Shown here one piece after another: positions 37,592 through 50,977 of a stretch of DNA of 64,000 nucleotides. Position numbers and translations under genes: made by a program. The DNA is from Thermodesulfobacteriota bacterium (lineage in GTDB: Bacteria; Desulfobacterota; UBA8473). The notes under the pieces were generated by a model, which did no database searches, was not told where the DNA came from, and was given only the letters and a program-made list of their open reading frames with translations. Within the stretch, counting starts at the first letter, position 1. Each line of letters opens with the position of its first letter. The DNA is taken from the NCBI GenBank assembly GCA_040757775.1, contig JBFLWQ010000008.1:1-64000 (forward strand), in the 5' to 3' direction.

Positions 37592-38458
37592 TCAATTAAA
37601 ATCTAATGGATCTGAATTTAGAATTGTAGGGTCAATTTGTGAAATCGAAAGTTCACCATATATCTCGGGACGACGACGGCTCAAAAAGAAACCCATTTTA
37701 CTCTTTCGTACCTGTATCAGATCACTTACCCTCAAATCAGCTATGACAATCTTCTCCTCATCGCCATAGGCATCTACTATTATATTACCTTTTGGGTCAA
37801 ATACCAGAGCCACTCCGGGAAACGATCCGCCTTCATCATAGTTGCCTACCTGATTACATGCCACCACAAAAATGCTGTTATCATAAGCACGTGCAGACAG
37901 ATATCGCAACCATCGTTCCCCCTTTTCCACAGATGTCTCTCGTGGAGAGGCATAAGGCAGAAAGAGAACCTCCACCCCTCTCAACGCGAGGATAGTGGTT
38001 AATTCAGGGAAATGCGTGTCATAACAGAGTTCAATGCCAAAGATCATTTTGGGATGTCGATAAGTGGAAAATTCATTACCATGACTGTATATGTTCCCCT
38101 CATTGGGAGCAAGGTGGAGTTTCCTGTAGACGCTACCAAGTCCATGGGGTGAGGTCACAATATGACTGATAAATAGGCTATCTCCATCCCCTCTTTCTAT
38201 CAGACCACTCAATATTGTTAAGCCAGTAGCTCTGGAGATGCTAACCAGGGCATCACTGCTGGGACCGGGAATCGGCTCAGCGTAGGAGCTGATTATTTCA
38301 TGGACACTGTAACCGGTTATGCTCGCTTCAGGGAAACAGATTATATCAACCCCTTTATCAGCAGCCTCTCTGACAAACGATTCAATTCGCGAAAGGTTAT
38401 CAGACGTTTTCCCCACAACTGAACACATCATCACCGCAGCAACTCGTACATCTTCCAT
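37592..38458 (-). CDS. Carbon-nitrogen hydrolase (nitrilase superfamily)
   Basis: This 288-aa enzyme has the full Glu-Lys-Cys triad: CFPEASITGY, YRKLHLAPNEG and GIELCYDTHFPE. The family hydrolyses amides or nitriles and the substrate is not evident. It lies between dsrN and dsrC, 22 bases after dsrN, so it is part of the dsr transcript. Possibly it acts on an amide of the siroheme-amide route, which is only an inference from position. Confidence 0.82.
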   Translation of the reverse strand: MEDVRVAAVMMCSVVGKTSDNLSRIESFVREAADKGVDIICFPEASITGYSVHEIISSYAEPIPGPSSDALVSISRATGLTILSGLIERGDGDSLFISHIVTSPHGLGSVYRKLHLAPNEGNIYSHGNEFSTYRHPKMIFGIELCYDTHFPELTTILALRGVEVLFLPYASPRETSVEKGERWLRYLSARAYDNSIFVVACNQVGNYDEGGSFPGVALVFDPKGNIIVDAYGDEEKIVIADLRVSDLIQVRKSKMGFFLSRRRPEIYGELSISQIDPTILNSDPLDFN

Positions 38459-38480
38459 TTTTCAACCAATATCTCTCTTC

Positions 38481-39944
38481 CTAGAAATTGAGAGCAACGG
38501 GGAAGCATCTTCCACATAAAGACGCATCTTCTCTATTTTTAGCATGTTTCCGGCTATAACAAGCGGCATTATCAAATAGACTTCTAGCCCACTTATCTGT
38601 TCCTAAAGCATGCAAATGAGAGTAGGTAGCCAGGACATTCTTATAGCAGAGGCCATCCCTTCTCCCGTCAATACCATATCCTCGCTTGACCCTAAATGCC
38701 GGTGTAAGTTGATCTTTTCCCCAGTCGAGGATTTTCGAATAGTGAAATTCATGACCACACAAGGTCTCTCCTACCCCGAAATAAGGATTGGGCTGATCTA
38801 CCTCCATGATAGTGTACCCATGACCCTCAGGTTTTTCTTGTAAAACAAAGGTCAGAGGAAAAACTCCCACCATTGGAAATGTCTTCTTTTCAACGATCAG
38901 TTGTTCCCCCAAATACATCAGCCCTCCACACTCAGCATAAACGGGAAGGCCTCTTTCTACAGCCTCACGCAGAGATCTTTTAAAATTCCGATTGGATGCT
39001 AACTTTTCAGCATGGGTTTCAGGAAAGCCTCCCCCTATGTAGAGAGCATCTATGGGAGGGAGTTCATCCTGAACAAGGGCACTGCACTCCACTATTTTCG
39101 CTCCAAGCTTTTCCAGAGCTTCCAGGTTATCAGGATAGTAGAACCAGAAAGCTGAATCCCTAATTACCCCAATCCGCGGCATTTTTGATGAATTTAGGGG
39201 CAATGCTTTTTCTTTCCCATCTTTACTGGGATCATCATAACTCAAAAAAGGGGCATCGACTGCAATCTTCCATATCCTCTCCACATCTATATACCGTTCA
39301 ACAATTCTGGCAGCTTCATCTACAGCTTTTCTGGCATCCGGGTGTTCCTGGGGCGGAACTAATCCCATATGCCTTTCTGGAAAAACCCCACCCTTCATTT
39401 TGGGAACAGCCCCTAATACAGGAATCCCACATTTCTCTTCTATTGCAGTACGCACAATGGATTCGTGACGGTTCCCTGAAATCCGATTCAGGACAACTCC
39501 TTTTATAGAAACTTCAGGATCAAAATGTTGACAGCCAAATATCATGGCGGCAACAGTACGTGTTGCCATACTACAATCGACTACCAGAACAACTGGAATC
39601 TGAAGCATTTTTGCAAGCTCGGCGGTGCTGTAACTCCCCTGTGGATCCATACCATCGAAAAGGCCTCTATTGCCCTCCACCAGGGCACCATGGGTTTGGT
39701 TAGTATGGATTGCAAAGGAAGAAAAGAGACCCTCTCTTCCCATCAAGAATGTATCCAGATTGTAACAGGGCAGACCAGATGCCAGAGAAAGCCAGGCTGC
39801 ATCTATATAATCAGGGCCTTTTTTAAAAGGAGAAAACGCCTGCCCTGCCCTGCGAAGACAGGCTGCTGCCCCTACTGTGAGGAGAGTCTTGCCTGAGTTT
39901 CCTCGAAGGGCAGAGAAGGCTACCCTCGAACAGTTTACTGCCAT
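38481..39944 (-). CDS. dsrN: Cobyrinic acid a,c-diamide synthase-like DsrN
   Basis: A CbiA/CobB-type ATP-dependent amidotransferase that amidates siroheme for DsrAB. From the ATG at 39944 it is 487 aa: GNSGKTLLTVGAAACLRRAG (ATP site), FSPFKKGPDYIDAAWLS, a C-terminal triad domain with AECGGLMYLGE. The frame is open to 40040 but that extension overlaps dsrD and has no homology. It follows dsrD by 13 bases. Confidence 0.88.
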   Translation of the reverse strand: MAVNCSRVAFSALRGNSGKTLLTVGAAACLRRAGQAFSPFKKGPDYIDAAWLSLASGLPCYNLDTFLMGREGLFSSFAIHTNQTHGALVEGNRGLFDGMDPQGSYSTAELAKMLQIPVVLVVDCSMATRTVAAMIFGCQHFDPEVSIKGVVLNRISGNRHESIVRTAIEEKCGIPVLGAVPKMKGGVFPERHMGLVPPQEHPDARKAVDEAARIVERYIDVERIWKIAVDAPFLSYDDPSKDGKEKALPLNSSKMPRIGVIRDSAFWFYYPDNLEALEKLGAKIVECSALVQDELPPIDALYIGGGFPETHAEKLASNRNFKRSLREAVERGLPVYAECGGLMYLGEQLIVEKKTFPMVGVFPLTFVLQEKPEGHGYTIMEVDQPNPYFGVGETLCGHEFHYSKILDWGKDQLTPAFRVKRGYGIDGRRDGLCYKNVLATYSHLHALGTDKWARSLFDNAACYSRKHAKNREDASLCGRCFPVALNF

Positions 39945-39957
39945 CTCTTTACTTTTT

Positions 39958-40197
39958 CTACTCCTCATCCTCAGCGCCGTGTTGCTTGCCGGCACCCTTG
40001 AGTCCGATGAGTGTAGTGCTACCACTTGACCAGTACTCAAGGAGCCCCTCAGTAACCATTGAGTTTACAAGCTTCTTTACGTCTCTTGGCTTCCAGTCTG
40101 GAAACATAGCATTGAAGTCTTTCAAATAGAACTTTGTCTTGCCTGTCTTGCCCTTTAATGTATCGAGTATAAGTTTTTTATCCTCTTCGATACCCAT
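39958..40197 (-). CDS. dsrD: DsrD, allosteric activator of DsrAB
   Basis: A 79-aa winged-helix-like protein (KTKFYLKDFNAMFPDWKPRD), matching DsrD. DsrD activates DsrAB for sulfite reduction and is nearly confined to organisms running the pathway reductively. It lies 16 bases after dsrB. A Glu/Asp-rich tail ends the protein. Confidence 0.92.
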   Translation of the reverse strand: MGIEEDKKLILDTLKGKTGKTKFYLKDFNAMFPDWKPRDVKKLVNSMVTEGLLEYWSSGSTTLIGLKGAGKQHGAEDEE

Positions 40198-40213
40198 TTA
40201 GCACCCCTTTTCT

Positions 40214-41329
40214 CTAAAATTTAAATTGTGTGCTCTGTCGCCATGTCGTATACGCAAAGCGGTAATCGTCAATAAGATGCTCTGTAAAAGGCAAACCCGT
40301 CTTCTCAAAGAACCTCTCCCAGCCAATCCTCTCAGCCCAATCACCAAGGCGCTCATATTTATTTGCGTCTTCCACATAGGCGTACAGGATTTTTTTGATC
40401 GCCTCTACTGTTGAGTCCCAACGTGGGGGTTCATTGGGGAGGAAAGGAACCACAACCTTGGAAAACTTAGGTTCACTTATCCTGTTAGATATCTTACCGC
40501 CCACCAGCAGGGCAACGCCACTTCCCTCTTCATCAGCCAACGGCATACTTGGGCACATGGTATAGCAATTACCACAAAACATGCATCTCTCGTTTTTAAC
40601 AGCAACGGTCTTTTTCCCATCCACTGTAGCAGGCTTGATAGCTCCGGTGGGACATGCTGCGATAGCTAAGGGAATCTCACACATATTGTCCAGATGCTCA
40701 TGGTCCAGCATAGGGGGTTTACGATGGATACCGAGAATAGCAATGTCAGAGCAGTGGACCGCACCGCACATATTTAGGCAGCATGCAAGGGAAATGCGAA
40801 CCTGTGCGGGAAACCTCATGTTCTGAAAATCATCATATAACTCGTCCATCACGCACTTTACAACACCTGATGCATCTATTGCCGGAGTATGGCAGTGAAT
40901 CCACCCCTGGGTATGAACTACGTTGGTAAGGCCAGCACCAGTCCCACCCCTTGGAAACTTCTTTGATCCACCTGCAAATTCTCTCTTTTCAAGATCCTCC
41001 ATAAGCGGTTTCAATTTTGATTCATCATCTACCATAAACTCGATGTTGTTGCGGGTAGTGAACCTTAGATACCCGCCACAGTGTTTATCAGCAATCTCGC
41101 ATATCTCACGGATATGCGTTACACTCATAAGCCGGCAGCCACCTACCCTCACCGTGTAAACCTTTGCACCTGTTTCAGAGACATGCATAAGCACACCCGG
41201 TTCAAGAATATCATGGTACAACCATTTACCATAATTTTCCTTAATGACAGGTGGCAAAAACTCTTCATAATTTCGTGGACCTATATCGGTTATTCTATCC
41301 TTCAACGGATCTTTTGGATCGTAGCCCAT
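40214..41329 (-). CDS. dsrB: Dissimilatory sulfite reductase beta subunit
   Basis: A 371-aa subunit of DsrAB with siroheme/4Fe-4S core text [17 protein letters not shown] and a ferredoxin insert [18 protein letters not shown]. It reduces sulfite with electrons from DsrC and Dsr partners. It starts 12 bases after dsrA and ends 16 bases before dsrD. Confidence 0.95.
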
Positions 41330-41341
41330 TCACATAACCTC

Positions 41342-42652
41342 CTATCTCTGGTGTTTTTTCCTGAATTCTTTAATATCCCTGTCCCATCCCCCTGGAACAT
41401 CCTCTTCCTTCCAGAAGATGTAAGGGTTCGATCTTGGTTCCTGGATCATTCGAGGGTCTGGCTCAATTTCTAATACCTCTAAAAACTTCTGGAAACCAAC
41501 TCTCTGGATCATCTCACCAAGACGCTCTCTGTTTTTACCCTCTTCAGACCAAAAGTCCCAAACCTTCTCGATCAGATCTTTTAGCTCATCATATGGTTCT
41601 TCTATCTTCATGAATGGGACAGTCAAAGTGGACATCTGGGCACCCTCCAGGATCGGGGCTTTTGCGCCAAAGAGTATAGATGCTCCTGTATCCTGGCCAA
41701 TTCTCAGTGCCCTGGGCATTACATTGATACAATGCATACAGCGGGTGCATTCTTTATTATCGATCTTAAGTTTCTTTCCATCCCACTCCATACACTGGGT
41801 TGGGCAGAGACCTATCACCTCTTTTTGGATATCGAAGGTTCCCCAGTCGCGTCCTGAATGGGCACCTGCATTAGGTTTAAACTCACCGCCAACATATTCC
41901 CTCACAGCCCCCTGATCGATACGGATGTCATCCCGCCATGTTCCTATAACCGACATGTCAGCTCTTGCTATAGATGCCACGCAACCATTGGGGCAGCCAT
42001 CAAACTTAAATTTGAATTTATACGGAAATGCAGGCCTGTGCAGCTCGTCTTGATACTCCATAGTCAGGTCGTAACACAAAGCCATAGTATCGTAGCAGGC
42101 ATATTCACAGCGAGCCATCCCTATACAGTCCGACGGAGTTCTAAGGTTGGAACCCGAACCACCAAGGTCCTGATTAAGGTCATGGGTAAGCTCCCAAAAG
42201 ATCTCTTCCAACTGCGGTGTTGTAGTCCCAAGCAATATTATATCACCTGTAGAACCGTGCATGTTGGTAAGACCACTACCGCGTCTCTCCCATAAATCAC
42301 AAAGTTGCCTCAAAAATTCAGTGGAATAAAACTTACTTGAAGGTTGGTTGACACGCATTGTATGAAAATCTCTCACCCCGGGGAATTGGTCAGGCTGGTC
42401 GCAATATCTGCCTATTACACCACCGCCGTATCCAAAAACGCCAACAATTCCACCGTGTTTCCAGTGGACTACCTTGTCTTTGTAAGTAAGTTCAAGAAGA
42501 CCTAGTAGATCATCACAAGCCTCCTTTGGGGCATGTAATTCAACACTGGTCTTTCCCCTATTCTCTGCCTCCTGCTTAATATCAGAGACAAAACTTGGCC
42601 ACCTTCCCTTCTCTAGCTCATCGAGCATAGGAGTTTTATGTTTTGCCATCAA
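41342..42652 (-). CDS. dsrA: Dissimilatory sulfite reductase alpha subunit
   Basis: The 436-aa subunit has the siroheme-[4Fe-4S] cysteine motifs CIGMARC (C-x5-C) and CPNGC (C-x3-C), and an inserted ferredoxin domain with CTRCMHCINVMPRA. It shows the family opening MAKHKTPMLDELEKGRWPSFV. A GGAGGT ribosome site lies just ahead. It begins the dsr transcript that runs to dsrP with no gap over 72 bases. Confidence 0.95.
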   Translation of the reverse strand: MMAKHKTPMLDELEKGRWPSFVSDIKQEAENRGKTSVELHAPKEACDDLLGLLELTYKDKVVHWKHGGIVGVFGYGGGVIGRYCDQPDQFPGVRDFHTMRVNQPSSKFYSTEFLRQLCDLWERRGSGLTNMHGSTGDIILLGTTTPQLEEIFWELTHDLNQDLGGSGSNLRTPSDCIGMARCEYACYDTMALCYDLTMEYQDELHRPAFPYKFKFKFDGCPNGCVASIARADMSVIGTWRDDIRIDQGAVREYVGGEFKPNAGAHSGRDWGTFDIQKEVIGLCPTQCMEWDGKKLKIDNKECTRCMHCINVMPRALRIGQDTGASILFGAKAPILEGAQMSTLTVPFMKIEEPYDELKDLIEKVWDFWSEEGKNRERLGEMIQRVGFQKFLEVLEIEPDPRMIQEPRSNPYIFWKEEDVPGGWDRDIKEFRKKHQR

Positions 42653-42668
42653 AATACCTCCATTCCTA

Positions 42669-42684
42669 AGTTTAAATTTAAACT
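42669..42684. promoter_or_regulatory. 16-bp perfect palindrome in dsrA leader
   Basis: AGTTTAAATTTAAACT reads the same on both strands, 17 bases before the dsrA start. Eleven of these bases (AAATTTAAACT on the minus strand) recur with the same orientation and similar distance upstream of the aprB ribosome site (near 30767-30777). It may be a shared regulator site or an AT-rich accident. Confidence 0.35.
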
Positions 42685-42740
42685 ACCTTCAATTAATATG
42701 GATTTTGTATCTACTCACCCCCTCCCAAAGAACATTGGTA

Positions 42741-42769
42741 ATTGTATTCAAACCCTCTGATCAAGGCAA
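42741..42769 (-). promoter_or_regulatory. Candidate sigma-70 promoter for dsrA
   Basis: Reading the minus strand, TTGCCT (42769-42764) and TACAAT (42746-42741) are 17 bases apart, about 90 bases before dsrA. The gap to the upstream TPR gene is 180 bases and holds no other gene. Confidence 0.4.
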
Positions 42770-42832
42770 GGGATAACACTATCTAATTTAATTAGTTAGA
42801 ACCATATCAAGTTATCCTGCCATTATTATAGT

Positions 42833-43459
42833 TTATAAAGAACGATACGCTTTCAATTCTTTCAAGAGATCCGGGTGTACATCAAAACCAAACTCTGCCG
42901 CCTTATTGTAATGTTCCTCTGCCTTTTTGAATTCCCCTTTTTCGAAGTAGGCAATGGCCAGGTTATTATGTGCGACTGCAAAGTTAGGGGCAATATCGAT
43001 AGCCTTCTTACTACACTTAATACTTTCTTCAATGTTTCCCTGCCTGAGATAGGCACTTCCAAGGGTACTCAGAGCCTGAACAAATTTTGGGTCTTTTTTA
43101 ACTGCCACCTGGAGCATATCAATTGCCTTTTCTACTTCCCCTTTCTGCAAATAGGCGAATCCCAGGTTACCATAAGGAATGGCAAAATCAGACCTTAACT
43201 CTATAACCTTCTTACAGGTATCGATACCCTTCTCAATTTCTCCCTTTTGGAAATATATCCCACTCAAGTTGATGTATGCCTCTACCATGCTAGGGCTTTC
43301 ATCTATAGCCTCTTCAAATTCGGATATTGCTTCATCCCATTTATGCTGCTTTATAAGCGCGATCCCTAAGTTGTAATGGGTAAGCGCACAACCCGGGTTC
43401 TCAATTAACCTATGCCTGAGATCTTTCACATAACCTTCTAAGAGTAACTCTTCACTCAT
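42833..43459 (-). CDS. Tetratricopeptide repeat protein
   Basis: This 208-aa protein is almost wholly five tandem 34-residue TPRs (residues about 16-185), each with the G/A..Y...G pattern, for example HYNLGIALIKQHKWDEAISE. There is no signal peptide. TPRs hold protein complexes together. It overlaps the upstream 113-aa gene by four bases (ATGA), so both are coupled, and it precedes dsrA on the same strand. Confidence 0.85.
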   Translation of the reverse strand: MSEELLLEGYVKDLRHRLIENPGCALTHYNLGIALIKQHKWDEAISEFEEAIDESPSMVEAYINLSGIYFQKGEIEKGIDTCKKVIELRSDFAIPYGNLGFAYLQKGEVEKAIDMLQVAVKKDPKFVQALSTLGSAYLRQGNIEESIKCSKKAIDIAPNFAVAHNNLAIAYFEKGEFKKAEEHYNKAAEFGFDVHPDLLKELKAYRSL

Positions 43460-43797
43460 AGCTTACCATTCTTCAAGAGGCGTTGATACCAACAGGAAAA
43501 CTCGTACATCGCTCTGTATCGGTCTTTACCGCTAATAATTCCTGTACAGATTTCCCATACCCCTTGGCCATATTCATTACTGTAATCTTCGTGACTGCAT
43601 GTTTGAAGAAAGTTCTTTGCAAGTTCCCATGCCGCATGTCTTCCTTGGCTTACCCTCATATCGATTGGGTCCTTTGGGTCTAAAAAAGGATCCCATCTGC
43701 CGTATCCTCTGGCCAGGATTTTCTTCTTATTCCTGGCCGACATCCCATCGAAGACAGCCTTTTTCCTTTCCTCCTGTTCAGGGGAAAGCCTATTCAT
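43456..43797 (-). CDS. Conserved hypothetical protein, 113 aa
   Basis: A soluble protein starting MNRLSPEQEERKKAVFDGMS, with YGRWDPFLDPKDPIDMR and a Trp/Tyr-rich C-terminus YGQGVWEICTGIISGKDRYR. I do not recognise a Pfam family by name, but similar proteins seem to occur in sulfate reducers. Coupled to the TPR gene downstream. The promoter and operator just upstream make it the first gene of that pair. Confidence 0.6.
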   Translation of the reverse strand: MNRLSPEQEERKKAVFDGMSARNKKKILARGYGRWDPFLDPKDPIDMRVSQGRHAAWELAKNFLQTCSHEDYSNEYGQGVWEICTGIISGKDRYRAMYEFSCWYQRLLKNGKL

Positions 43798-43858
43798 CTA
43801 AATATCCTATTATTTAGCATGGTTACTAAGTGCACCCTGTTCTAACCGGGGAAAATAT

Positions 43859-43876
43859 TGAATGAATACTCATTCA
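43859..43876. promoter_or_regulatory. FadR (TetR-type)-like operator
   Basis: TGAATGAATACTCATTCA has perfect 7-bp arms around ATAC. It matches the consensus I recall for the Bacillus FadR/YsiA acyl-CoA-responsive repressor, TGAATGAMTANTCATTCA. It lies 12-29 bases downstream of the -10 box of the candidate promoter at 43888-43916, a position fit for repression. Confidence 0.5.
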
Positions 43877-43887
43877 CAAACTTTTGC

Positions 43888-43916
43888 AAAATACCACTGC
43901 ACCTTAAAAAAGTCAA
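43888..43916 (-). promoter_or_regulatory. Candidate sigma-70 promoter for 113-aa/TPR pair
   Basis: Minus strand: TTGACT (43916-43911), 17-base spacer, TATTTT (43893-43888), about 90 bases before the 113-aa ORF. The FadR-like palindrome lies over or just after the expected start of transcription. Confidence 0.45.
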
Positions 43917-44029
43917 CAGTTTTTTCTAAGAGGTTTGAATTGGAATTAATTACTTTCTCGCAACCCATGAATGATACTATCAGAGGCTGTTTGACCCAAA
44001 AACCCTGTTATGTTCGCCCTAAAAAAATC

Positions 44030-44353
44030 TTAATGTAATTTTGAACGGATTTCCTTGCCTGCAAGAGGATTATAAAGCTTCATTATAGCAGCCTTCATAA
44101 CATCCAGAGTCTTCATATTCACTATAAAACCCATAAGGGTATTTTCTGCCTCTTCTGGAAGCACACAAGCATTGGAAGAGTCTGTTGTCATGTTTGGGAA
44201 ACCCTTACAAATTTTCTTATGCTCCTTCTGGGTAATACCTACCTGAATCACCTTTTTACCACTTATCTCCTTAACCTGATCTGCTAACCCAGCATTTTCA
44301 ATCTTCTTGAATTTTTCATTATCCAAAAAGATATTAATGTAATAATCTGCCAT
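44030..44353 (-). CDS. Hypothetical protein, 107 aa
   Basis: A small alpha/beta-looking protein (YYINIFLDNEKFKKIENAG, then VIQVGITQKEHKKICKGF, two Cys). No family recognised. It follows the sigma-54-linked ferredoxin gene by 111 bases on the same strand, so it may share that transcript. AGGAGG precedes the ATG. Confidence 0.6.
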   Translation of the reverse strand: MADYYINIFLDNEKFKKIENAGLADQVKEISGKKVIQVGITQKEHKKICKGFPNMTTDSSNACVLPEEAENTLMGFIVNMKTLDVMKAAIMKLYNPLAGKEIRSKLH

Positions 44354-44464
44354 ATGAATACCTCCTTATTTCCTTATTCATAAACATTAGCACATCTAGT
44401 GACATAGCAACTAGCATCTTTGTACACAGAATACCTGCCTTTACCCAAACATAGCCTTGGAATT

Positions 44465-44704
44465 TCAATATTCCTGCTCTACATCCCTTGAAAATTCACC
44501 ACTCTCCCCAATAATGCTCAATGCCCCTGTCTCACATACTACTATACAGTTCTCACATCCGAAGCATTCCCCCCCAGTTATCAGGGGAGCACAACCATAC
44601 TTTCTTTTAATCAGTATCTCATTGGGGCAAACGTCCACGCATAACCCACAACAATTACACTTTTCTTCATCTATAAGAATCCGAACCATCGAGGCAATAC
44701 TCAT
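44465..44704 (-). CDS. 2[4Fe-4S] ferredoxin
   Basis: A 79-aa ferredoxin with CNCCGLCVDVCP and CFGCENCIVVCETG, both full C-x2-C-x2-C-x3-C motifs. A shorter start (Met6) is possible. It is the first gene after the sigma-54 promoter at 44741-44757 and lies next to a two-component system. It could be an electron donor to the sulfur or acyl pathways. Confidence 0.85.
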   Translation of the reverse strand: MSIASMVRILIDEEKCNCCGLCVDVCPNEILIKRKYGCAPLITGGECFGCENCIVVCETGALSIIGESGEFSRDVEQEY

Positions 44705-44740
44705 TACTCTCTAGAATATTATATTCCTAACTAAAAAGAG

Positions 44741-44757
44741 TAGCAAAAAACATGCCA
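44741..44757 (-). promoter_or_regulatory. Sigma-54 promoter
   Basis: Minus strand: TGGCATGTTTTTTGCTA, giving GG-N10-GC with -24 TGGCA and -12 TTGC, close to consensus. It ends 37 bases before the ferredoxin ATG, a normal leader. An NtrC-family activator gene is next to it (45043-46416). This region (44705-45042) contains no gene. Confidence 0.7.
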
Positions 44758-44816
44758 TGAAAAATTCACTGACTATGATTTGGAATCAGATCGCAGTATT
44801 AAATATCCTTAATAAT

Positions 44817-44831
44817 ATAGTTAGGAACTAT
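44817..44831. promoter_or_regulatory. Possible activator-binding inverted repeat
   Basis: ATAGTT-AGG-AACTAT (44817-44831) is a perfect 6-bp inverted repeat about 60-75 bases upstream of the sigma-54 -24 element, where enhancer sites for NtrC-type regulators lie. A half-like TTCCTAACT occurs again near 44724-44732. Confidence 0.35.
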
Positions 44832-45042
44832 TGAAAAGCTGAGTATATTCACGTAAGGCTATCTTCTGGAAAATAGTAAACCCGTAAACGGATAGCCCAA
44901 AGGAGAAAAAAATGTAACATTTTTAAATGAGTGGTTTTCTTTAAAAATAGAATTTTCCTTTGCTTTTGAAGAAGTTATTTCAAATCCAAACCATGTTACG
45001 AAAAAGTAACGAAGCGTCTTTAGAAAGAAGATGTCTTGGTAG

Positions 45043-46416
45043 CTATGAAGGAGACTTGTCAGACAGTTGGTGTTCTTTAATTTTTTCCCACAGGGTCTTG
45101 CGGTTTATACCCAGAAGCTCAGCAGCTTTAGCCTTCCGCCCCTGCGTTACTCGAAGGATTTTTTGGAGATATTCTTTTTCTACAGCCTTTAATACATCAT
45201 CTAGGGTTTCAATCTCGTGCTGGATAAGCTTCTTTTTCAAGCGAATCTCTCGTATTTCCTGGGGAAGATCCGCAATTTGGATCTTCTCTGTGCGGCAAAA
45301 GGCCACTGCCCTCTCCACGACATTTTTCAGCTCTCTGATATTGCCAGGCCATTCGTATTGTTCCAATAGGTCCAATGCCCCTTCCGTAAATCCAACTATG
45401 CTTTTGGAAGTCCTTCCTCTAAACTCATTAAAGAAATATTTAGCCAGAAGGGGAATATCTTCTCTGCGTTCACGTAAGAGCGGAAGCTGGATTCTAATTG
45501 TGTTTAAACGATAGTACAAATCCTCCCTAAGACGTTTGGTCTTTATTTCATCCATGTCGTATTTTGTGGCACTGATTACCCTTACATCCACATGAATAGT
45601 CTTGGAACCACCCACCCTCTCAAATTCTCTCTCCTGGAGAACACGGAGGAGTTTGACCTGGACGGTAGGTGATATGTCGCCAATCTCATCTAGAAAAAGT
45701 GTCCCCTGATCTGCCAGTTCAAATCGACCAGGTTTCCTTTGTACGGCACCACTAAATGCTCCCCTTTCATGACCAAAGAGCTCTGACTCGAGAATTGTCT
45801 CCGATAGGGCAGCACAGCTCACTTTAATGAAAGGGCCATTTTTACGACGGCTATTATAATGAATAGCGTTAGCAACCAGCTCTTTCCCTGTACCACTTTC
45901 ACCCTGAATCAGAACAGTGGCATCCGTTTCCGATACTATCTGAATACGTTCGTAGATCTCCTGCATTTTATCGGATTTGCCTACAAGGTTGCCAAAGTGG
46001 TATTTCTTCTCCAGTTGCTGGCGGAGATAGATATTCTCCTCTTTTAAGCACTGAAAAGAACTGATATTTTGGAGCTTCAAAATCAGTTCATCGAGAGAGA
46101 AAGGCTTGGCAATAAAATCGTGGGCACCCAATTTCATTGCTTCCACAGCCTTTTCAATTGTGCCATGCGCTGTAATCATAACCACAATCGTCTGGGGAGA
46201 CAGGCTCTTAATGTCTCTAAGTATATCCATGCCGGACATATCAGGCATGACCATGTCTAACAGCACCATATCAAAGGAACCCTCTTGGAACATCATAAGC
46301 CCTTTTCGGCCATTTTCAGAGACCTCCACCGTGTATCCGGCTTTGGCTAAAGCATCGGATACTGTCACAAGTAAGATAGGTTCATCATCTATAAGCAAAA
46401 CCTTACCTCTCTCCAT
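45043..46416 (-). CDS. NtrC-family sigma-54-dependent response regulator
   Basis: In order: receiver domain with the phospho-Asp in LLDMVMPDMSG (Asp54), AAA+ domain with GESGTGKELVANAIH Walker A and the sigma-54 contact loop HERGAFSGA (GAFTGA variant), and a Fis-type HTH tail (RKAKAAELLGINRKTL). 457 aa. It overlaps the kinase gene by 14 bases, so they are coupled. The sigma-54 promoter facing away 286 bases downstream is a likely target. Confidence 0.92.
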   Translation of the reverse strand: MERGKVLLIDDEPILLVTVSDALAKAGYTVEVSENGRKGLMMFQEGSFDMVLLDMVMPDMSGMDILRDIKSLSPQTIVVMITAHGTIEKAVEAMKLGAHDFIAKPFSLDELILKLQNISSFQCLKEENIYLRQQLEKKYHFGNLVGKSDKMQEIYERIQIVSETDATVLIQGESGTGKELVANAIHYNSRRKNGPFIKVSCAALSETILESELFGHERGAFSGAVQRKPGRFELADQGTLFLDEIGDISPTVQVKLLRVLQEREFERVGGSKTIHVDVRVISATKYDMDEIKTKRLREDLYYRLNTIRIQLPLLRERREDIPLLAKYFFNEFRGRTSKSIVGFTEGALDLLEQYEWPGNIRELKNVVERAVAFCRTEKIQIADLPQEIREIRLKKKLIQHEIETLDDVLKAVEKEYLQKILRVTQGRKAKAAELLGINRKTLWEKIKEHQLSDKSPS

Positions 46417-47950
46417 GCTGTAGCCCCTTTAAAAACGATTTATGGGTCTTCTTATCCTCCCGATGATTGACAGGCAAAAGTATCATGAATTGACTTCCAA
46501 AGCCTTCTTTACTTTCAACCTCGATTTCTCCGGCATGGTCCTGAATAATTGCGTAACTGACAGAAAGACCAAGCCCGGTTCCCTGTTCGTGTTCTTTTGT
46601 ACTGAAAAAAGGATCGAAAATCCTATCCAGGTTTTCCTTTGGGATCCCGCACCCCCTATCCCTTATTATTACACTAACATTTTTATCCTCCTGACGAGTC
46701 TCGATCCAAAGGTCTCCCCCTTCTGGCATAGCTTGGATGGCATTCAATATAAGATTCACAAAAACCTGAATTAACTGATGAGGATCTGCCAATATCTTTG
46801 GAATATCTTCATCAAACTCTTTCAGGACAGTAATACGATTTGAAGAGAAGTGATGGGAGGTCATCTCCAACGTCCGGTTCATCAACATATTAATATCAGT
46901 TGGTTCGGGCTGAAAATTCCTTTGCTTGCCAAAATTTAAGAGCTGTTTAACTGTCCTCCGTATTCGTTCCAGACCTGTTTGGATCAGGTTAAAATATTTG
47001 ACCCTTAACTCCTCATCCTGCGAGTTTTGTCTGAGAGTTTCAAGACAGGTTAGAACACCCCCTAAGGGATTATTGATTTCATGGGCTAAACCCGCCGCCA
47101 GCTTCCCCATCGCTGCCATTTTCTCAGTCTGAATCATGTTAGCATGGGTACGTCTAAGTTCCCTTCTGGCCTGATTGAGGTTATCCATCATGGTGTTAAA
47201 AGCCTGACTCAGAAACCCTATTTCATCCTTATGGCTGATAGAAGACCGAATCGATAAATTCCCTCTGCTTACCTCTCTCAGGTCGTCCGTTAATTTTAGA
47301 ACAGGTCTTATAATCTTTAGGGTTAAGACATAAACGATAATAAAAGTGAGAGCTATCAGCACTGCCGATAAAAAAATCATCTCATTATAAGGTTTAACTA
47401 AATATCGCTTGAGCGTCTTGCTTTGCAGACTCTGTAAATAAAATCCAACTCTTAAATAACCCACTTTCTTATATCCATAGATAAGAGGTGTGGAAATTTC
47501 CAACATTTCCTGGTCAGCTTTATATCTTCGAATGAGTGTCTTATTGGGGAGAGTATCTTGCAAAGTAGTTTGCCCCAGAGGAATCTCTCTGTATCTCTCG
47601 AAACCTTCCTTATAACGGTCTCTTATTATCTGGCCAGAGGCATCGGCAATAACAACATATCCTATGTTTAAGTTTTTGTTAATCATCTGTCCAATATGTT
47701 TATCTAACACTCCCCCACCCTTCTTCCCCATCTCTGGTTTCTCATTCATTACGGCATCAGAAATAGAAACCGCAAACACTTCTACCAGATCTTTCTTTCC
47801 CCGTTCTAGGTTCTCCTTTGTCAAACGGTATTCTCTATAAATGGAAAAAGCCATCATAATGATAACCATTAGGATCAAAAAACCGGAGATAAGATAGAAT
47901 TTGGTCTTAAGACTCCACGCATTTTTATGAGAGAAGGGGAAAAAAGGCAT
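46403..47950 (-). CDS. Membrane sensor histidine kinase
   Basis: This 515-aa kinase has two membrane segments (about 18-37 and 191-210) around a periplasmic sensor of about 150 residues, a HAMP linker (about 212-262), the phospho-His in [14 protein letters not shown] (His290), and ATP-binding boxes ([28 protein letters not shown]). The signal is unknown. Partner of the NtrC-type regulator. Confidence 0.92.
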
Positions 47951-47993
47951 AAAATCCTCTTATACCTTATAATCTATTGACTTAACTAGCACT

Positions 47994-48022
47994 TATTTAT
48001 ATTATTAGGAAAAGGAAGTCAA
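47994..48022 (-). promoter_or_regulatory. Candidate sigma-70 promoter for the two-component pair
   Basis: Minus strand: TTGACT (48022-48017), then TAAATA with a 17-base spacer (47999-47994), with TATAAA overlapping at 15 bases. It is about 45 bases before the kinase start. The gap 47951-48358 between the divergent kinase and first PaaK-like gene holds no other gene. Confidence 0.4.
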
Positions 48023-48198
48023 GGTTGAAAATAAACAAAAATGTCGCCCAAATTCCACAGTTTATTTCCTGGTTTTTTTATATGTACTTTTAATTAAACA
48101 ACCTCAATATTCCCAAGCACATGAATATTCTTATTCCCTCGTTGTAACTGGTTAACTTATAGATCAGACTTACTTAGGAAACCCTTGCAACTTTTTCC

Positions 48199-48225
48199 TT
48201 GACTGGGAAGTATATATAATATAAA
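48199..48225 (+). promoter_or_regulatory. Weak candidate promoter for PaaK-like genes
   Basis: TTGACT (48199-48204) and TATAAA (48220-48225) are 15 bases apart in an AT-rich stretch, 134 bases before the first PaaK-like gene. The spacing is short, so support is modest. Confidence 0.3.
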
Positions 48226-48358
48226 CACAGATAACCTCATAGTACAAGTAACAATTAATCAATAAGAATTGAAACTGGATAAAACGCTTTTTTAGCCTGT
48301 ATCTTTGAGGTAAAGAAGTCTCCCATCTCGGTCTTTATACAACCAAGGAGGAAAGAAT

Positions 48359-49621
48359 GTGAATGAATTTAGTGATCAAAGGGAATGGATGCCAGTTGAA
48401 GATAGAGAAAGGTATCTTGTAGATAAGTTTAGAGAAGTGGCTATACATGCCTATAAGAATGCACCGGCAATGAAGAAAAGATTTGATGAAGCCGGAGCTG
48501 ATCCCTCTAAGATAAAGAGTATCAAGGACTTAGAGAAAATTCCTATAGTGACAAGAGACCAGTTTATAAAGATGCAACGGGAAGCTCCTCCTTTTGGTGG
48601 TTTCTTGACTGTGCATCCCAGGGAACTCAAGAGAATCTTTATCCATCCCGGCCCCCAATATGAAACCCTTGCTGATACGGATATCGAGCATGCACTAAAG
48701 GTCGTCTGGAAGATAGGAATAAGAAAGGATGATATAGTTATAAATGCTCTGTCTTATCATCTTGTTGCTGCCGGGCTGTTACTGGATGATCTCATAACTG
48801 CTATGGGAGCAACAGTAGTTCCAACCGGGATAGGGAACACCAGTTTACAGGTTCAGATCATTCATGATTTGGAGGCCAGTTACTTTGTCGGATTTCCCCT
48901 TTTTCTTATGAATATAATACAAGAGGCAGAGAAAATGGGGTACGATTTCAAACGTGATTTTGCCCTGAAAAAGGCACTTGCCCTTGGAACCTCTCCGGTA
49001 AGAAAGAGTCTGGAGAAGGATTACAATATAGATACCAGAGAGCTCTATGCTTTCCTGCCTGTGGGGTTGCCTGCATGTGAATGTGACCAGAAGTCTGGCA
49101 TGCATATAGAGGAAGACTTTATCGTCGAGATAGTTGACCCGTTGACCGGGAAACAGCTCCCTTGTGGTGAAGTAGGCGAGATAATTGTTACCACTCTTTT
49201 CAATGATGTCTTGCCGAGGATTCGTTTTGGAAGCGGCGATCTTGCCTATTGTACAGATGAACCATGTCCCTGCGGGAGGACATCTACCCGTATTGTAAAG
49301 GTTGTCGGAAGGGTAGGAGAGGCGGTAAAGACACGGGGTATGTTTATCCATCCTTTAGAGGCAGAGGATGTAGTTTCGAGGTTATCTGGGGTTTCAAAAT
49401 TCCAGATATTGATCAGTCACCATGAAATGAGGGACTTCATAACCGCTAAATTTGAGCTTACAGACGAGGGTGTTGATAAGGAGAAATTAGCTGACACTTT
49501 TATGAAGAGTTTCCAGAATATATGCCGTCTTAGGGTAAATAAGGTTGAATTTGTGTCCAGGGGTACTATACCTGATGATGCAAAGAAGGTTATGGATTTA
49601 AGAAAAGAGGTCATTCTTTGA
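48359..49621 (+). CDS. PaaK-like adenylate-forming protein with altered nucleotide loop
   Basis: A 420-aa protein with the fold and length of phenylacetate-CoA ligases: C-terminal PCPCGRTSTRIVKVVGRVGE and IPDDAKKVMDLRKE with a Lys resembling the catalytic one. However, the canonical SSGTTGKP loop is replaced by FIHPGPQYETL (residues 94-103), and the usual Y-G-x-(S/T)-E is YAFLP. It may activate an unusual acid, bind without adenylating, or be non-catalytic. Start GTG 48359 with AGGAGG ahead. Confidence 0.75.
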   Translation: MNEFSDQREWMPVEDRERYLVDKFREVAIHAYKNAPAMKKRFDEAGADPSKIKSIKDLEKIPIVTRDQFIKMQREAPPFGGFLTVHPRELKRIFIHPGPQYETLADTDIEHALKVVWKIGIRKDDIVINALSYHLVAAGLLLDDLITAMGATVVPTGIGNTSLQVQIIHDLEASYFVGFPLFLMNIIQEAEKMGYDFKRDFALKKALALGTSPVRKSLEKDYNIDTRELYAFLPVGLPACECDQKSGMHIEEDFIVEIVDPLTGKQLPCGEVGEIIVTTLFNDVLPRIRFGSGDLAYCTDEPCPCGRTSTRIVKVVGRVGEAVKTRGMFIHPLEAEDVVSRLSGVSKFQILISHHEMRDFITAKFELTDEGVDKEKLADTFMKSFQNICRLRVNKVEFVSRGTIPDDAKKVMDLRKEVIL

Positions 49622-49690
49622 ACAATCGCAGCAATTATTAATAGCCTTTTAATTTCAATTGATTAGCATGCATTCGGAAGGAGAATTTCG

Positions 49691-50977
49691 ATGGCAAATG
49701 AGTATGAATACTGGAGCAAAGAACTGGAAACCATGCCTCAAGAAAGATTAAGAGAACATCAATTAGGAAGATTAAAAAAACAGTTAAAATACGCATATAA
49801 AAATTCTCCTTATTACAAGAAGAGTTTTAATGAGGCTGGAGTGAAACCAGAAGATATTAAGTCCTTTGAAGACTATCAAAAGGGTATACCTTTCATATCA
49901 AAGCCCCAACTAATTGAAATTCAGGCTCGAAATCAGCCCTTTGGGGGGCTATTGGCAGTCGAGCCAAAGGAACTCAGCCAGCTCTTTTATGCTCCTGGAC
50001 CGATCATCTATCCATTTACATGGAAAGAATGGGGTTATGTAATAGAGGTCGTAGCGCGGGCACTCTTCACTATGGGTGCACGCAAAGATGACATAGTAGA
50101 CTGTACGGTCAATTATAATTGGGTAATTGCTGGCATGCTCTTGGGTGATGGTATGAAGATGGTTGGTTGCGCAGTACTCCCTGGTGGAGTTGGCATGACA
50201 AGGACTCACATAGAAGTGATGAAACTGACCAAATGCTCTTTAATCTTTGGGTTTCCTACATTCTGTCAGCAATTAGCAGATACAGCAATTGAAATGGGGA
50301 TTGCCCCGGATAAAGACCTTTCTATCAGACTAGTCCAAGTTTTTGGTGAGGTAAGGACAGAGGCTGGCAAAAAGGCATTAGGAGAAGCATTTGGGGCAAA
50401 CGTCCGGGAACTGTATGGTACAGCAGACCTGGGGATAGTTGCCGCTGAATGCTCAGAAAGCGGTGGTATGCACCTTGATCCAGATGTCCTTGTGGAGATA
50501 TTGGACCCTCATACAGGACAGCCTGTAGCTTGGGGAGAAAGTGGGGAGATATGCGGATGCGATTTTAACAGGAAGGCTATGCCTATTATCCGCTATAGGA
50601 CAGGGGATATTACTGAAGGTTTAAATCTGGAGCCATGTTCCTGTGGGAGAACTACACCTAGGATCAAACGAATATTGGGTCGTGTGGGAGATATACCAAG
50701 AATAAAGGGAATGTTTATTTCTCCCAGACAGATAGACAACGTCCTCGATAATTATCCAGAATTGGGTAAATACCAAATAATTGTAGAAAGGCCAAAGCTC
50801 CGCGATGAACTTACTATAAAGATTGAATACAAAAAGGCAGTTAACTTAGAAGGCATAACGGAAAGATTAGTAAATGATTTAAAAGTTGCCATTCGCGTAA
50901 CCCCCCAGCTTGAATTGGTTAAAAAAGGAATAATCCCTGAGGATGCCCCATTGGTGGATGATAGAAGGAAGGTTTAA
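49691..50977 (+). CDS. PaaK-like adenylate-forming protein (paralogue)
   Basis: A 428-aa paralogue of the preceding gene. The loop reads FYAPGPIIYPFTW (residues 99-111) in place of SSGTTGKP, and the next motif is YGTADLGIVAAEC, closer to PaaK. RYRTGDIT and PCSCGRTTPRIKRILGRVGD are intact, but the C-terminal Lys motif is IPEDAPLVDDR. GGAAGGAG precedes the ATG. With its neighbour and the liv genes it suggests uptake and use of aromatic or branched acids. Confidence 0.75.
   Translation: MANEYEYWSKELETMPQERLREHQLGRLKKQLKYAYKNSPYYKKSFNEAGVKPEDIKSFEDYQKGIPFISKPQLIEIQARNQPFGGLLAVEPKELSQLFYAPGPIIYPFTWKEWGYVIEVVARALFTMGARKDDIVDCTVNYNWVIAGMLLGDGMKMVGCAVLPGGVGMTRTHIEVMKLTKCSLIFGFPTFCQQLADTAIEMGIAPDKDLSIRLVQVFGEVRTEAGKKALGEAFGANVRELYGTADLGIVAAECSESGGMHLDPDVLVEILDPHTGQPVAWGESGEICGCDFNRKAMPIIRYRTGDITEGLNLEPCSCGRTTPRIKRILGRVGDIPRIKGMFISPRQIDNVLDNYPELGKYQIIVERPKLRDELTIKIEYKKAVNLEGITERLVNDLKVAIRVTPQLELVKKGIIPEDAPLVDDRRKV

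Follow-up and report, generated by a model that had tools for sequence, protein, structure and literature searches.

A candidate two-promoter control region with a sigma-54 promoter and a FadR-type operator at the dsr locus of an uncultured sulfate-reducing bacterium

Introduction

The regulation of dsrAB in sulfate reducers is poorly described. Among the closest described systems are those of D. vulgaris, in which sigma-54 regulons were reconstructed by the same logic as that followed here (PMC4641369) and the targets of two-component systems were mapped (PMC3333781). HcpR, a regulator of the CRP/FNR family and in that respect unlike the system described below, regulates some sulfate-reduction genes in Desulfovibrio; however, according to its authors, the regulon does not include DsrAB (PMC545781). 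With regard to fatty-acid-responsive regulators, the sections consulted of a study of Desulfococcus multivorans describe FadR2 as detected specifically in myristinate-adapted cells (PMC5109826). A search of the open-access literature turned up no study in which dsr is placed under sigma-54 or FadR control; this does not prove that such control is unreported. Here, we analyse a dsr locus that carries candidate elements for both types of control.

Results

Organization of the dsr locus

The window, a stretch of 64,000 nucleotides, contains on its minus strand the dsr neighbourhood of an uncultured sulfate-reducing bacterium with a genome of 3.1 Mb. The minus-strand order runs from a histidine kinase gene and a response regulator gene across a gap of 338 bp to the genes for a ferredoxin, a DUF6955 protein, a 113-aa protein and a TPR protein, followed by dsrA, dsrB, dsrD and a CbiA-type gene:

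46403-47950, minus strand: sensor histidine kinase (periplasmic domain, HAMP, HisKA, HATPase)
45043-46416, minus strand: NtrC-type response regulator (receiver, sigma-54 AAA+, Fis-type HTH)
44465-44704, minus strand: 2[4Fe-4S] ferredoxin
44030-44353, minus strand: 107-aa protein, DUF6955 (PF22271; Pfam family match)
43456-43797, minus strand: 113-aa protein, dsr-linked, without Pfam or NCBIfam match
42833-43459, minus strand: TPR protein
41342-42652, minus strand: dsrA (TIGR02064)
40214-41329, minus strand: dsrB (TIGR02066)
39958-40197, minus strand: dsrD (PF08679)
38481-40040, minus strand: CbiA-type (dsrN-like) gene, an open frame identified by inspection and conserved position

The real start of the CbiA-type gene probably lies downstream of that of the open frame listed. 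An earlier reading made from the letters of the window (here, the sequence-only reading) had given the order as ferredoxin, 107-aa gene and then dsr; this order holds, and the 113-aa and TPR genes additionally sit before dsrAB. An Rfam search of positions 38000-50000 returned no match.

DUF6955, a family without assigned function, shows dsr linkage at many of the Desulfobacterota loci sampled, and it was also detected in Sulfolobus acidocaldarius, a control genome. Its structure model is of moderate confidence (pLDDT 71) and had no match in the PDB with an E value below 1, and a literature search returned no paper naming DUF6955. The 113-aa gene is likewise dsr-linked in several lineages, e.g., at loci L056, L060 and L066.

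The kinase/regulator pair and its orthologues

The sequence-only reading had also placed a kinase/NtrC-family pair directly upstream, and domain matches bear this out. The regulator combines Response_reg, Sigma54_activat and HTH_8 domains, and reached none of the NCBIfam equivalog cut-offs (AtoC, 485.8 against 714; NtrC, 429.7 against 558.6; ZraR, 427.7 against 760). In regulators of this type, GAFTGA is the loop that contacts sigma-54; residues 219-224 of the window regulator read GAFSGA, and GAFTGA is present in 7/7 other aligned sequences.

Regulator orthologues with 81-91% identity occur in two congeners that have the full locus (L031/L051 and L032/L052) and in G001, which is represented by a truncated contig. 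They also occur in G005/G007 and G006, which represent two other genera, and in L056, which derives from a MAG labelled Syntrophaceae; among these orthologues, the recognition-helix region is nearly invariant. The ferredoxin, DUF6955, 113-aa, TPR and dsrAB genes have an identical order at every orthologous locus extending that far. In two genomes, the end of the contig with the regulator gene overlaps exactly with the start of the contig with the ferredoxin gene (134 bp in G005 and 91 bp in G006), and the adjacency of the two genes, therefore, very probably holds there as well, which makes four genera with an adjacent regulator gene; in G007, such a contig-end overlap was looked for and none was found. 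The leader ahead of dsrA (gap 42653-42832) carries a G-rich element, GGGAGGGGGTGA, that is kept in the window genus, G005/G007 and L056.

Kinase identity between genera is 34-49% in the periplasmic region and 72-77% in the kinase core. A low-confidence model of the periplasmic domain (pLDDT 63) matches WalK, CitA, CtaA and PctC with a best E value of 4.5e-4, and the domain as modelled resembles single-Cache/PDC sensors.

A predicted sigma-54 promoter ahead of the ferredoxin gene

Between the regulator gene and the 113-aa gene, the following elements are considered, listed from upstream to downstream:

44995-45010, minus strand: site 1, GTTACTTTTTCGTAAC, which the activator probably binds, kept in 7 loci of 4 genera
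44904-44919, minus strand: site 2, TGTTACATTTTTTTCT (also given as TGTTACATTT), a further site that the activator probably binds; its distance to site 1 is 91-93 bp in every genus
44817-44831, no strand assigned: inverted repeat ATAGTT-N3-AACTAT of the sequence-only reading, probably non-functional
44742-44757, minus strand: P1, predicted sigma-54 promoter TGGCATGTTTTTTGCT (TGGCATG-N4-TTGCT), by consensus match and conservation
43888-43916, minus strand: P2, predicted sigma-70-type promoter TTGACT-17-TATTTT, conserved
43859-43876, minus strand: FadR-type operator TGAATGAGTATTCATTCA, a palindrome directly downstream of P2

The assignment of P1 draws on the following observations. First, its GG-N10-GC element reads on the minus strand from 44757 to 44742 and lies 36-37 nt ahead of the ferredoxin ATG at 44704, exactly as the earlier reading had placed it. 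Second, P1 is an exact match to TGGCAYRNNNNTTGCW, of which the 3.1-Mb genome contains 12, and when the 338-bp gap was subjected to 2000 dinucleotide shuffles, not one of them reached its score. If one mismatch is permitted, the genome contains 127 such sites compared to 35 for a reversed-pattern control, an enrichment that points to sigma-54 promoters of this form being in real use. Third, rpoN is encoded in the window genome, and it is present in 5/6 genomes checked, the exception being the 85%-complete G006. Fourth, counterparts of P1 were found in the congeners (TGGCATGCTTTTTGCA and TGGCATGCTTTTTGCG), in G006 (TGGCATTGTTTTTGCA), in L056 (TGGTATAGTTTTTGCT) and, in a weaker form that keeps 10/12 positions, in G005/G007 (CGGCACAACTTTTGCT; shuffle P about 0.03). 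Loss of the motif at orthologous loci, a possibility that the earlier reading had itself raised, was thus looked at, and the site proved to be kept in four genera, i.e., the window genus with its two congeners and, more weakly, three others.

The same stretch can be read as an ordinary sigma-70 promoter, TTGCTA-17-TATAAT (44718-44746), in which case the sigma-54 match would be coincidental. In the window, this reading matches at 10/12 positions; however, both congeners have lost TATAAT but retain GG-N10-GC, and the region contains six promoter-like sites when 7.1 are expected by chance. Conservation rules this reading out, and we give it next to no credence. Judged by its sequence and conservation, P1 is a real sigma-54 promoter.

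Elsewhere, four further NtrC-type regulator genes (G000 contigs C4, C5, C10 and C27) have a same-strand sigma-54 site 94-281 bp downstream; the order of a regulator gene and then a sigma-54 promoter, therefore, recurs in the genome. In more distant Desulfobacterota, neither a good sigma-54 candidate near DUF6955 nor a GTTAC palindrome was found.

Candidate activator sites upstream of P1

The sequence-only reading had proposed ATAGTT-N3-AACTAT as the site bound by the activator. This inverted repeat exists in the window, but it is degenerate in the congeners, with one and two mismatches, and lacks a counterpart in the other genera, in which the best match has four mismatches. A genome-wide search returned 14 copies with up to one mismatch compared to 15 for the control, i.e., no enrichment. 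Being neither conserved nor enriched, the repeat was rejected as an enhancer.

Two other elements, which the sequence-only reading had not picked up, are conserved. Site 1, GTTAC-N6-GTAAC, is exact in six loci and has one mismatch in L055, and site 2, TGTTAC(A/T)TTT, is kept in every genus. Compared to L055 and L056, 14/16 positions are kept in site 1 and 13-14/16 in site 2; the corresponding values are 35-40/64 between the two sites and 43-44/138 between site 2 and the promoter. Moreover, site 1 is present in 7/7 regulator-linked loci versus 0/13 DUF6955 loci without a regulator orthologue, some of which have short upstream flanks. Across the genome, the palindrome is not enriched (49 copies with up to one mismatch compared to 88 for the control), and its other exact copies in these genomes have no good sigma-54 site downstream (100 of the 127 sites being listed). 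Together, these two results make a one-locus regulon likely; the lack of enrichment also means that no second target corroborates the palindrome. We suggest that sites 1 and 2 form a two-part element that is likely the enhancer of P1, and the co-occurrence of site and regulator makes it probable that the adjacent regulator binds it.

Because binding by the regulator is deduced in this way, the GTTAC sites may instead serve another factor, or the 3' region of the regulator gene, with the adjacent regulator working elsewhere. The N6 spacing of the half-sites, which is also typical of CRP-type sites, would fit such a factor. However, the sites are found only where the regulator gene adjoins and lie upstream of a sigma-54 promoter, which needs an activator of the NtrC class; the exact copies elsewhere that lack downstream sigma-54 sites also speak against it. 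We consider this alternative unlikely and continue with the adjacent regulator as the probable ligand of both sites.

A second predicted promoter with a FadR-type operator ahead of dsr

In the gap between the DUF6955 and 113-aa genes, loci L051-L055 have a TTGACT-17-TATTTT promoter, with TGAATGAGTATTCATTCA or a sequence close to it immediately downstream; P2 and the operator, neither of which the sequence-only reading had picked up, are kept in three genera, the window genus and two more. In L056, this gap is about 47 bp and contains neither P2 nor the operator, and in this locus only, the sigma-54 promoter looks like the sole promoter ahead of the 113-aa and TPR genes. The stretch from the ferredoxin gene to dsrA contains no predicted terminator, so read-through from P1 into dsr is possible.

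From its position, P1 would most directly serve the ferredoxin and DUF6955 genes. Placed ahead of both and fitting the adjacent two-component system, it supports the earlier proposal of a signal-responsive switch on the ferredoxin and 107-aa genes. The extension of this switch to dsr is only partly right: it stands as far as read-through is concerned, but most of these genomes provide dsr with a separate promoter under different control. In its full form, the sequence-only reading envisaged one sigma-54 unit from ferredoxin through dsr, with the regulator acting on ATAGTT-N3-AACTAT. A single unit would agree with the conserved sigma-54 promoter, with the location of all genes on the same strand without a predicted terminator between them, and with the arrangement in L056; however, a second conserved promoter and operator precede the dsr part in three genera, and the inverted repeat fails by the comparisons given above. 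Altogether, we regard the full one-unit model as highly improbable, and favour separate promoters for the two parts of the cluster.

The operator TGAATGAGTATTCATTCA fits TGAATGAMTANTCATTCA, the consensus for FadR of Bacillus subtilis. FadR proteins of the Bacillus family are repressors that are released by acyl-CoA. In the window genome, the operator palindrome has four exact copies compared to none for the control (7 versus 0 with one mismatch), and each of seven relatives has one to six exact copies compared to none. Elsewhere in the genome, the exact copies lie before a TetR-type gene with etfBA, a TmcD/TmcC cluster and HMG-CoA synthase/thiolase genes; copies with one mismatch precede fumarase-sucC and nuoA, and another on contig C6 is less clear. 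A TTGACA-type promoter is located just upstream of the operator in most of these places. The TetR protein contains PF00440 (TetR_N) and PF08359 (YsiA-like C-terminal domain), and its closest PDB matches are 1vi0 and 3whb. Its score against the NCBIfam FadR equivalog, 190.1 bits, is below the cut-off of 200, and we therefore class it as FadR-like rather than as FadR. A TGAATGA-type palindromic operator is found at its own gene with etfBA and at the thiolase genes, and orthologues with the operator upstream occur in six relatives. Taking the operator alone as the guide to FadR control of dsr, the simplest reading is that the FadR-like repressor would link dsr transcription to fatty-acid oxidation.

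Two further observations concern the distribution of the operator. G007 (L053:520-537) and G005 (L054:593-610) have an extra FadR-type operator, accompanied by a TTGACA promoter, ahead of the ferredoxin gene; it is located downstream of the activator sites and upstream of the sigma-54 site. Among the regulon loci (L082-L087 and L088-L104), the operator in G005 also precedes a cluster that by inspection resembles Na+/H+ antiporter subunits.

Discussion

Here, we describe what is probably a two-promoter control region, in which the sigma-54 promoter P1 would serve ferredoxin and DUF6955, a FadR-repressed P2 would serve dsrABD, and read-through from the first to the second may occur. This model builds on the sites, their positions and conservation, the gene order, and the presence of rpoN and of a gene for a FadR-like protein; the steps of signalling, binding and transcription deduced from them would be as follows. 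A membrane-bound kinase that senses on the periplasmic side would phosphorylate the NtrC-type regulator encoded directly upstream of P1. The regulator would bind the two GTTAC sites, the palindromic site 1 and site 2 about 92 bp closer to the promoter, and, once bound, would open the sigma-54 polymerase at 44742-44757, leading to expression of ferredoxin and DUF6955. The FadR-like TetR repressor, encoded elsewhere with etfBA, would shut P2, which has the operator in its start region, when fatty acyl-CoA is scarce. In the presence of fuel, P2 would be released together with the genes for ETF, Tmc and thiolase and, probably, with the fumarase/sucC and Nuo genes. P2 would then drive the 113-aa, TPR, dsrABD and CbiA-type genes, to which P1 could add by read-through.

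More broadly, we lean slightly towards the idea that dsr in this class of sulfate reducers is under two dedicated controls, i.e., a FadR-type acyl-CoA repressor shared with genes for fuel oxidation and electron transfer, and a dsr-linked sigma-54 two-component system for an external signal. If true, sulfite reduction would follow the supply of fatty acids instead of being constitutive. The two conserved elements at one dsr locus also provide testable handles on when sulfite reductase is made.

The proposed arrangement has counterparts in known systems, from which it also differs. In the sigma-54 and two-component regulons of D. vulgaris, NtrC-type regulators similarly work through palindromes and sigma-54 promoters and frequently adjoin the operon they target, and the targets include an electron-transport system (Ohc, DVU3142); by contrast, "dsr" is absent from the main text of both studies, and the target here would be the dsr cluster (PMC4641369, PMC3333781). 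In D. multivorans, also a sulfate reducer, a TetR-type FadR gene, that of FadR2, is located beside etf genes as it is here, while the sections of that report consulted do not describe a FadR2 operator or a link to dsr (PMC5109826). Among solved structures, those of FadR (YsiA) of Bacillus subtilis (PDB 3whb and 1vi0) are closest to the TetR protein of the window genome. Unlike in B. subtilis, the operator here is also found before dsr and Tmc and, with one mismatch, before nuo and fumarase/sucC, which would tie dsr to the genes for electron-transfer flavoprotein, Tmc and fuel oxidation.
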